The translations under genes were made by a program, and so were the position numbers. Below, piece by piece: positions 1,553 through 50,786 of a stretch of 64,000 nt of DNA. The DNA comes from Verrucomicrobiales bacterium (GTDB lineage Bacteria; Verrucomicrobiota; Verrucomicrobiia; Limisphaerales; JAYPXF01). The stretch covers positions 1 to 64,000 of the forward strand of contig PBAL01000004.1 of assembly GCA_002715965.1 (NCBI GenBank), given 5' to 3'. Each line of letters opens with the position of its first letter. Position 1 is the first letter of the stretch. The notes beneath the pieces are model-generated. The model did not search any database. It saw nothing but the letters and a program-made list of their open reading frames with translations, and was not told where the DNA came from.

Positions 1553-1773
1553 GGCTGGGAGTGTTTCGGAACGAATGGATTTATCAATTCAAATGGATCA
1601 GGCCACGAAGCTCATGAACTCGCGCAATCGGAATCAACTTTCCAACACGATCGGTTACGTTGGTGGCGGTTGACAGAACTTGAGCTCATGCCGGAGCGCC
1701 CGCACCAACCTACTTTGCGTTTTATTCGCCGGATCACGGACGCCGGAATTCTTGACCGGACCGAGATCTGGAT

Positions 1774-2169
1774 TTGAGCAATCAATCCTGCACCTGCAGC
1801 GACTGGAAGGATTTTCGGCAGGGGCAGAACCTGGGAGATCCCGGCCGTCTTTGTTCGCATCTCGCGCGCGCATTTCGTGACACGCTTTCCGGTCAAGACA
1901 GTGTGCCGACCCACACGCGTGTGCTACTGGAAGATCTCGATCAACGCGGTTGCGGTGGCCAACTGGATTTCACCTGGCAGTTGCTTGAATTCCAGGACGA
2001 CAAGATCCTCGCCGGCCATGTCGGCCCGATCTGGTGTCATGTGTATGGACCATCAAAGTCCGGCGACTGCGAACGATTCAGTTACCATCGCGTCGAGCGT
2101 CGCTGGTTCTTCGGCGCCAAGCCAAAGCACGTGCACCAGCTCAAGAAGTTCCTCGACACGCTGAAGTAA
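1774..2169 (+). CDS. small SWIM-like zinc-binding protein (copy A)
   Basis: Small protein of about 131 aa that I cannot assign to a named family. Near the N-terminus it has CxC (Cys6, Cys8), an 18-residue gap, then CxH (Cys27, His29), which matches the SWIM zinc-finger pattern CxCx(n)CxH. Further on are W87-C88, then YGPSKSG and RFSYHRVERRW. The product encoded at 49967-50470 has the same spacing and shares CTC-x-D, GxPGR-x-C, AFRD, WC and the ER-x-x-Y...RW segment, so the two are paralogues. The start is uncertain: TTG at 1774 follows an in-frame TGA at 1753, with no clear ribosome binding site, and the N-terminus may be incomplete. The gene lies between the divergent oxidoreductase and the convergent DUF5069 gene. 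SWIM domains bind DNA or protein; the role here is unknown. Confidence 0.66.
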   Translation: MSNQSCTCSDWKDFRQGQNLGDPGRLCSHLARAFRDTLSGQDSVPTHTRVLLEDLDQRGCGGQLDFTWQLLEFQDDKILAGHVGPIWCHVYGPSKSGDCERFSYHRVERRWFFGAKPKHVHQLKKFLDTLK

Positions 2170-2178
2170 GCCGGCGGC

Positions 2179-2619
2179 TCAGATCCGCCCTTCCTCGATG
2201 TCGTAAACATCGAACCACACGCGGACAATTTTCCCGGCCGGAATGTTTTCCGGAATGTAACCCTCCAGAAACTCCTGCAACTCAATCGGCATGGTGCTGA
2301 TGCGTTTATCGCGCATGTCGTTGTTCCACTGGATGATTTCGCGTTGCGGACGTTCCTTGGCGTTCTTCTGAATCCACTCACCAACCTCGTCATCGCTCGC
2401 GCCGGTTTCAACAAAGGCCCGAAAGTCTTCCGCCGTAATTTCGACGAATCCCAGGAACATGTTGTCGAGCGGACAATCGAAGTGGTAGTCGCCGTTGGTG
2501 CCGGCGATGACCGCGCGGCACTTGTCCAGCATGCGGCCGGCGACGACGTAACCGCCGAGCCTTTCGCGGGGGCTGCGTGGAAACACCTTGGAGAGATCGA
2601 GAGCGTTAATTTCAGACAT
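2179..2619 (-). CDS. DUF5069 domain protein
   Basis: Cytoplasmic protein of 146 aa matching the DUF5069 pattern: an N-terminal segment with FPRSPRERLGGYVVAGRMLDK, then AGTNGDYHFDCPLDNMFL and an acidic region leading to WIQKNA. No signal peptide or membrane segment is present and the biochemical role of the family is not established. ATG at 2619 (MSEINALDL) was preferred over an upstream non-ATG start because family members begin close to the DLxKxFPRSP segment. The gene is convergent with the SWIM-like gene, only 9 bases away, and lies downstream of the hydrolase-peptidase gene on the same strand, so they may be co-transcribed. Confidence 0.85.
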   Translation of the reverse strand: MSEINALDLSKVFPRSPRERLGGYVVAGRMLDKCRAVIAGTNGDYHFDCPLDNMFLGFVEITAEDFRAFVETGASDDEVGEWIQKNAKERPQREIIQWNNDMRDKRISTMPIELQEFLEGYIPENIPAGKIVRVWFDVYDIEEGRI

Positions 2620-2671
2620 GGTAAGGTCTGCGTGTTGTGTATCTGCGGATAGTTGCTTGTGTTCCTGCAAG

Positions 2672-4724: not shown

Positions 4725-6116
4725 CTACGCCAGCACGGGGTTCACCACATGACCGTGAACGTCAGTGAGGCGGTAGTAGCGGCCTTGGAAGCGAAAAGTA
4801 AGGCGTTCGTGGTTGATACCGAGGCAACGGAGCAGCGTGGCATTGAGATCGTGCACATGAACTCCGTTCTCGGCGACGTTGAAGGAGAACTCGTCAGTGC
4901 TGCCGTGGGAAACGCCGGGCTTGATTCCCCCACCGGCAAGCCAGATCGAAAAGCAGCCGCCATGGTGATCGCGGCCGTAGTTGTTGTACTCAAGCGTTCC
5001 CTGGCTGTAGATCGTGCGTCCGAATTCGCCGGTCCAGACAATGAGCGTGTCCTCAAGCAAGCCGCGCTGCCTCAGATCCCTCACGAGGCCCGCGCAGGCA
5101 CGGTCGATGTCCCCGCATTGAAGGCGGAGATCGGTGGGCAGGTTGTAATGCTGATCCCAACCGCGGTGATAGAGTTGAATAAAACGAACGCCTCGTTCGG
5201 CGAGCCGACGTGCCAGCACGCAGTTACGCGCGAATGAACCGGGCCGTGTCGAATCGCTCCCGTACAGCTCGCGCGTGCTCTTGGGTTCGTTTGAAAGATC
5301 CGTCAGTTCCGGCACGGACATCTGCATGCGGCCGGCCATTTCAAATTGCCTGGTGCGCGTGAGGATTTCCGGATCGCCAGCCAGTTCGTATTGCTCACGG
5401 TTCAGCTTTGCGAGTCCTTCGATCATTTGGGCGCGGGACCCGGCATTGATACCCGGGGGATTGGAAAGGTAGAGGACGGGATCGGTTCCCGAACGAAACT
5501 GAACACCTTGATGGTTCGAGGGAAGAAAGCCTGGTCCCCAAAGCCGCGCATGCAATGGATCGGCGGGACGCGTCGCACTGCCATTGGATAGCAATACAAC
5601 GAATGCAGGCAAATCCCTGTTCTCACTGCCCAAGCCGTAGCTGAGCCACGCCCCAAAGCTCGGCCGGCCCGGTTGTTGGTGGCCGGTCTGCAGATACGTC
5701 ACCGCAGGATCGTGATTGATCGCCTCGGTGTGCATGGACTTTATGAAGCAGAGCTCGTCCGCGACCCCGGCGAGGTGCGGAAGAAGTTCGCTTATGGCCG
5801 CACCCGATTGCCCATGTTGTTCAAACCGAAAACTACCCGGCACGATTGGAAAGGCCTTTTGTCCGGAAGTCATGCCGGTGAGTCGCCGGCTCTTGCGAAC
5901 GGATTCCGGCAATTCCTCACCACGGCGCTTGATCAAGTCCGGCTTCGGATCGAACAGCTCCATCTGGGGCGGACCGCCATGCATGAAAAGATGAATGATC
6001 CGCTTGGCCTTCGGTGCAACGCGCGTTGCCGCGCCAGCGAGAAGTTTCGGACTCAGCAGGGACGCAAGTGCCGTTGTTCCCAAGAATCCGCGACGAGTTG
6101 CAAATGGCGTGCTCAT
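4725..6116 (-). CDS. DUF1501 domain protein, Tat-exported
   Basis: Protein of 463 aa with a twin-arginine signal (TRRGFLGTTALASLL) and the DUF1501 hallmark MHGGPPQMELFDPKP around residues 45-59. DUF1501 belongs to the alkaline-phosphatase/sulfatase-like superfamily; the C-terminal part has WTGEFGRT and GRDHHGGCFS, typical metal-site segments. Its start codon overlaps the end of the PSD1 cytochrome gene by four bases (6113-6116, ATGA), the usual paired arrangement in Planctomycetes and Verrucomicrobiota, so the two are translationally coupled. The biochemical role of these pairs is not established; a periplasmic function in handling complex glycans is commonly suggested. Confidence 0.93.
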   Translation of the reverse strand: MSTPFATRRGFLGTTALASLLSPKLLAGAATRVAPKAKRIIHLFMHGGPPQMELFDPKPDLIKRRGEELPESVRKSRRLTGMTSGQKAFPIVPGSFRFEQHGQSGAAISELLPHLAGVADELCFIKSMHTEAINHDPAVTYLQTGHQQPGRPSFGAWLSYGLGSENRDLPAFVVLLSNGSATRPADPLHARLWGPGFLPSNHQGVQFRSGTDPVLYLSNPPGINAGSRAQMIEGLAKLNREQYELAGDPEILTRTRQFEMAGRMQMSVPELTDLSNEPKSTRELYGSDSTRPGSFARNCVLARRLAERGVRFIQLYHRGWDQHYNLPTDLRLQCGDIDRACAGLVRDLRQRGLLEDTLIVWTGEFGRTIYSQGTLEYNNYGRDHHGGCFSIWLAGGGIKPGVSHGSTDEFSFNVAENGVHVHDLNATLLRCLGINHERLTFRFQGRYYRLTDVHGHVVNPVLA

Positions 6117-49966: not shown

Positions 49967-50470
49967 TTAAGACGGCGTCTGGAAAATCGAAGTCTCTCCC
50001 GTGAACGAAGCGCTGGGGTTGTTCGAGGCGAAGTAGGCGCGGAGTGCACGGGCGCCGAAAAGCATCGAGCTGTAGGACCACCGGCCTTCCCGGATGTCGT
50101 AGCAGTAGCGCTCCACACCCGTTCTGCTGTCGATGTAGATGTTGCACCATTCCCGGTCGCCCCAGGAAACGAGCCACTCGTGTTTTTCATGCCGCAGAAT
50201 CTTCCAGGCCGGCGCGGGATCGAAGCTTCCCCCGGTCTCGGTGAAAAGATCCAGGAGCTGGAAAAACTTGGTGTTCCAATCCGTTCGGGGAATCTGTGAC
50301 TCCACGTCCGGATCCCGAAAGGCGGCCACCATGCAGCGGCAGGCGCGACCGGGCGAACCCACCGGAAAGGAGAATCGTCGTGAGGAAAAGTCACCACAGG
50401 TGCATTCCTGGGTCATGAGGTTGACTTGGGAAGATTTGCCGCCCTCGGCGGACTGCACCTCGATCTGCAC
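49967..50470 (-). CDS. SWIM-like zinc-binding protein (copy B)
   Basis: Homologue of the product at 1774-2169. From GTG at 50470 it has 167 aa. CTCGDF (Cys23, Cys25), an 18-residue gap and CRC (Cys44, Cys46) align exactly with the CxC...CxH of copy A, with Cys instead of His in the last place. WCNIY (W108, C109), TGVERYCYD and RWSY also match. No standard start lies further upstream, but the frame is open to about 50590 and reads ALGIKEAVDDGLPKHINFEV, IDLKFPALN, which looks like genuine protein. The gene may continue from the TerB-like ORF at 50574-50786 after a frameshift. Function is unknown. Confidence 0.68.
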   Translation of the reverse strand: MQIEVQSAEGGKSSQVNLMTQECTCGDFSSRRFSFPVGSPGRACRCMVAAFRDPDVESQIPRTDWNTKFFQLLDLFTETGGSFDPAPAWKILRHEKHEWLVSWGDREWCNIYIDSRTGVERYCYDIREGRWSYSSMLFGARALRAYFASNNPSASFTGETSIFQTPS

Positions 50471-50573
50471 GTTGAGCGCCGGAAACTTAAGATCGATTAC
50501 CTCAAAGTTGATGTGCTTGGGAAGTCCGTCATCGACTGCTTCCTTGATACCGAGCGCGCCCGCGCATTGCAGC

Positions 50574-50786
50574 TCAATGCCGCGATGCCTTCAACTCATG
50601 GGCGTCGAGCCGGCCATCGGCAAAAACCTGTTGAAGCACGTCGAAAAGCACGTTGCCCGGCCATGACTTGCGGGCCGGCATGCTGTCGTTCAGGTAGTTG
50701 CCCAGCGACAAAACTTCCTCGTCCGTCACGATCCCGTCCTCGGTGATATGACGAATTCGTCGCATGGTTTCCAGGTTGGGCTTCAT
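50574..50786 (-). CDS. TerB-like/EF-hand-like small ORF upstream of copy B
   Basis: From ATG at 50786 about 70 aa: RRIRHITEDGIVTDEEVLSLGNYL, ARKSWPGNVLFDVLQQVFADGRLDAHELKA. Two DG-x-(V/L)-x-x-(D/A)-E segments resemble TerB-like domains of tellurite-resistance-type proteins. It ends at TGA 50576-50574, inside the open part of the SWIM-like frame; the two overlap by 17 bases and differ in frame by one. An upstream frame to 50915 (MKTCPSCLKP) is open but not supported. It may be the first half of one protein. Confidence 0.5.
   Translation of the reverse strand: MKPNLETMRRIRHITEDGIVTDEEVLSLGNYLNDSMPARKSWPGNVLFDVLQQVFADGRLDAHELKASRH

Follow-up and report, generated by a model that had tools for sequence, protein, structure and literature searches.

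The zinc-ligand pattern CxCx(n)CxH is the definition of the SWIM motif (PMC11216215), and prokaryotic SWIM-associated SWI2/SNF2 ATPases have been mentioned previously (PMC5512222). Here we describe a bacterial family that has CxC-x(n)-CxH in the same sequence context as the Pfam SWIM family (PF04434) but differs from it in that the flanking N- and C-terminal domains are in no named family and partner domains of the ATPase, kinase, or transposase type are absent. The SWIM-associated SWI2/SNF2 ATPases, such as the one on contig C251 of genome G001 introduced below, likewise have a SWIM motif, near the N terminus; however, they are about 930-1200 aa long and contain a helicase core, whereas the present proteins have about 265 aa and lack one, and no intact member gave a Pfam match to a helicase core. 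RNase_T (DEDDh exonuclease)/GYF_2 proteins of the same class (G087, G084, and G168) share a DG..E..L....WPG..L.....DG....E domain with the family (profile E values of 8e-7 to 6e-11), but in place of SWIM they contain RNase_T (PF00929) and/or GYF_2 (PF14237).

The two loci that led to this family, copies A and B, lie in the window, i.e., the whole stretch of 64,000 nucleotides analyzed. Its genome (G000) was compared with G001, the sole other genome of the genus returned, and G002, a genome of the same bacterial family, both being uncultured Verrucomicrobiota metagenome-assembled genomes. The PF04434 cut-off of 19.6 bits was exceeded by distant members (G484, 22.5; G414, 23.9; G531, 22.5), and 8 of the 12 intact members from G001 and G002 matched the model at E ≤ 1, SWIM being the main recurring Pfam match. 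The intact protein G001_C176 fell below threshold as a protein scan and above the cut-off in the genome search, copy A reached 10 bits, below the gathering cut-off, and copy B had no match to PF04434. We conclude, with a probability of about 0.82, that A and B are 3' remnants of pseudogenes from a lineage-expanded SWIM family, every detectable copy of which is disrupted in the window's genome and which the sister species keeps intact.

Copies A and B are split over two frames

Both open frames were located at the positions reported earlier (1774-2169 and 49967-50470). Two-sequence BLASTP, a single comparison, aligned their products over 134 columns at 26% identity (E = 6e-13), and CxC-x18-Cx(H/C), AFRD, WCx(V/I)Y, ERxxY, and RW are common to both. 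These data bear out the proposal of an earlier note that A and B are paralogues, and the Pfam and NCBIfam searches agree with its description of them as SWIM-like proteins without a family name. The features are as follows.

1688-1771 (+): 5' piece of A, MPERPHQPTLRFIRRITDAGILDRTEIW, opening part of the N-terminal helical domain (translated frame; frameshift-aware alignment to G001_C176)
1774-2169 (+): 3' piece of A, in another frame, carrying the SWIM motif and the C-terminal domain (profile match, alignment)
1789-1860 (+): SWIM zinc motif of A, CTC-x18-CSH (sequence)
49967-50581 (-): 3' piece of B, in another frame, carrying a linker, the SWIM motif, and the C-terminal domain; 50018-50581 matched (profile match, alignment)
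50333-50404 (-): SWIM zinc motif of B, CTC-x18-CRC (sequence)
50582-50585 (-): frame break of B, a loss of about 14 nt compared with G001_C176 (frameshift-aware alignment)
50586-50786 (-): 5' piece of B, MKPNLETMRR...HELKA, with the N-terminal helical domain (60% identical to G001_C176 residues 1-67)

All four zinc ligands are retained in A, and the two copies scored 110.3 (A) and 138.8 (B) bits against the family profile. All-frame translation revealed a recognizable N-terminal domain directly 5' of each, in a different frame. At A, 14 of 25 residues of the 5' piece were identical to intact G001_C176 by tblastn, and frameshift-aware alignment to the same protein indicated that about 102 codons are missing between the two pieces. 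At B, the two pieces together scored 245 bits against G001_C176, with the 3' frame staying open upstream to about 50590. A continuous frame of about 263-289 aa is therefore absent in both copies, each being split over two frames, and the listed ORF starts, TTG at 1774 (A) and GTG at 50470 (B), are not gene starts, since the N-terminal halves are encoded in other frames. The earlier note would have given up its proposal if no homologues existed outside this genome or if either ORF was out of frame with a different conserved gene; the outcome is mixed, as homologues do exist elsewhere, whereas either ORF lies in a frame different from that of the remainder of its gene. The view of two working zinc proteins is thus not supported, and A and B read instead as the 3' parts of frame-broken genes, 2 of 13 degraded loci in the genome. 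A working product should not be expected from either in this species. Downstream of A lies a gene for a DUF5069 protein (PF16798, E = 3.8e-40; window 2179-2670, minus strand).

The intact family in related genomes

A contig scan with a two-row alignment as query matched only the two query loci. Searching with B returned paralogues in its own genome and longer, intact relatives in G001 and G002. The 12 intact sequences could be aligned across 263-289 aa, the residues W-P-G, CxC, and C being invariant, and their architecture consists of a helical N-terminal domain, present in all 12 of these family-level copies, the SWIM motif, and a W/Y-rich beta C-terminal domain. The paralogues are deeply diverged, with 27-36% identity to the first row of the 12-sequence alignment. 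The spacing between the two ligand pairs, previously seen to be identical in A and B, is x18 in all 15 intact relatives examined, and CxC-x18-CxH occurs in A and 14 of those 15. The reported difference of His in A and Cys in B was likewise confirmed, but the Cys is not peculiar to B, since intact G001_C171 also ends in CxC.

No Pfam or NCBIfam family covers the 12 intact members, PADLOC anti-phage defense models gave no match to them at E 0.01, and a literature search found no paper on a SWIM family with a helical N-terminal and a beta C-terminal domain. Two AlphaFold2 models, of moderate confidence (mean pLDDT of 67 and 77), show helices, a hairpin with the zinc motif, further helices, and a five-strand sheet; fold searches of both against the PDB gave no match at E ≤ 0.001. 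Histone H2B matches to the family profile (best E = 0.0019) were taken as chance. Among distant members, some have a zinc ribbon at the N terminus, and two (G531 and G538) have SWIM and the C-terminal domain without the helical domain. At one locus (L133, G538:C177, 4470-5816), the SWIM motif and the C-terminal domain of the family occur together with a zinc ribbon and ankyrin repeats.

No full-length copy was detected in the window's genome

The earlier count of two loci did not hold, as the family profile identified 13 in the window's genome, none of full length; this genome is a single metagenome-assembled genome, 92.7% complete, and an intact copy could sit in the missing part. G001, by comparison, has eight full-length copies, one locus with only the N-terminal domain (C161), and two at contig ends, and G002 has four full-length copies and one at a contig end. 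Full-length copies thus number 0/13 in G000 versus 8/9 in G001 (Fisher P = 2.8e-5). Two G001 loci (L100 on G001:C171 and L107 on G001:C17) hold near-identical versions of one family gene together with its flanking sequence at contig ends, probably strain variants in one assembly. Lesions in the window's genome, read locus by locus by frameshift-aware alignment, are listed below.

A: deletion and frame break
B: frame break
C22: truncated at the 5' end
C45: 6-aa and 23-aa deletions, with loss of zinc ligands
C24: frame break
C92: deletions and frame break
C27: 83-aa deletion
C17: 101-aa deletion and TAG
C10, C28: N-terminal domain only
C38, C71, C86: scraps

At A, C27, C92, and C45, which have no close intact orthologue, deletions were judged against diverged paralogues and part of them could be ancestral; the frames of C45 and C27 are still open after in-frame deletions. 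C10 may be a genuine short form, given the N-domain-only locus of G001, and the contrast between the two genomes would survive if it were counted so. The remaining coding stretches show a third-position excess, the pattern expected had selection on the protein persisted until fairly recent times, with uncorrected pN/pS of 0.28-0.59, values that are only indicative because synonymous sites are near saturation. At C22 (L002, G000:C22:64023-67562, about 778-2082), a 435-aa chimeric ORF fuses the 5'-truncated SWIM/C-terminal remnant to unrelated sequence upstream of it and could pass for a gene in annotation.

As a control, DUF1501 matches were counted by hand in the same genome: 107 of 121 were full length (≥85% of the model, no stop), the others being fragments or distant relatives, although DUF1501 and the SWIM family are unlike in size and function, so that the comparison has its limits. 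The fraction of the window covered by ORFs is about 0.94. Altogether, these two figures make general genome decay or poor assembly unlikely. One DUF1501 region lies in the window itself (4725-6116).

Distribution and phylogeny

The family is rare in the order, with a match in 22 of 320 genomes, mostly as a single copy, and in a phylum-wide sample of 388 genomes only the window's own genome matched. Multi-copy expansion was seen only in this bacterial family, and the tree sets its copies apart from the rest (support 100/99). Remnants of the window's genome interleave with intact genes and pair with different ones of the sister species: C24 with C206b (100/97), C22 with C176 (100/97), C17 with C237 (97/90), and C28 with C164 (98/96). 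Four well-supported one-to-one pairs among scattered remnants indicate that duplication predates the species split, and since well-supported branches force at least seven label changes for G000, the losses were separate and many. No operon partner conserved across the family was found in the neighborhoods compared.

Alternative explanations

It is conceivable, though unlikely, that A and B each encode a functional short SWIM protein translated from an internal start, with a dispensable N-terminal domain. Their 3' pieces are open for 131 (A) and at least 167 (B) codons, A has its full ligand set, and the domain composition of G531 and G538 offers a precedent; yet the N-terminal halves are still recognizable directly upstream in other frames, every intact family-level copy has this domain, and the remaining copies in the genome are broken too. 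Sequencing or assembly errors account for the frame breaks with very low probability: the data come from one metagenome assembly, and one short frame-breaking gap would suffice for B, but most lesions are large deletions or truncations rather than single-base errors, and neither the DUF1501 count nor the ORF coverage suits a faulty assembly.

It is also improbable, though slightly less so than sequencing error, that the family represents a selfish or mobile element which first spread and later died out in this genome. Dispersed single genes, mostly without conserved neighbors, a patchy distribution, and wholesale decay would all fit such an element. Against it, the phage, plasmid, and viral collections searched contained no match, a transposase or integrase domain is absent, and the deep divergence of the paralogues, together with neighbors shared between G001 and G002 by two pairs, indicates that the copies are old and stably placed.

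Proposed history and function

Decay of an old gene family is thus the reading we prefer. In this reading, the expansion within the bacterial family predates the separation of the two sampled species of the genus; all 13 detectable loci of one species were later disrupted, whether by frame breaks, by internal deletions, or by truncation, while the sister species retained eight full-length copies. The most economical cause may be relaxed selection on one function common to all paralogues. It is plausible, at somewhat below even odds, that about 13 diverged, scattered paralogues formed one functional system whose loss made all of them dispensable at once, leading to parallel pseudogenization in one species. 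If so, identifying the common partner or trigger that was lost would show what the family does.

The ancestral protein may tentatively be pictured as a soluble, zinc-stabilized adaptor binding nucleic acid or protein, a suggestion drawn from the SWIM motif and the occurrence of the N-terminal domain in RNase_T/GYF_2 proteins; zinc binding by the family is predicted from sequence. The SWIM-SNF2 protein of G001:C251 was considered as the common partner and rejected: the window's genome has no full-length counterpart, yet the same holds for G112, G410, G414, G415, G514, and G505, all of which retain a single intact copy of the family. This protein is thus not an obligate partner, and the distribution of C251-type genes does not follow the presence of the family. 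The weak SWIM signal of the window's genome was likewise not taken as loss of all SWIM genes, since its SNF2 proteins may hold SWIM motifs below detection.

The interest of the system lies in family-wide decay in one species versus retention in its sister, a natural experiment in which one lost every copy found and the other kept at least eight. Gene families gained and lost in step could point to the role of ATPase-less bacterial SWIM adaptors. For annotation, ORF callers will label such remnants as short SWIM proteins. Lastly, single-copy relatives in G410, G514, and G505 (L085, L129, and L130) have a conserved flotillin-like gene, identified by eye, one or two genes away, and a functional link between this neighbor and the family is possible.
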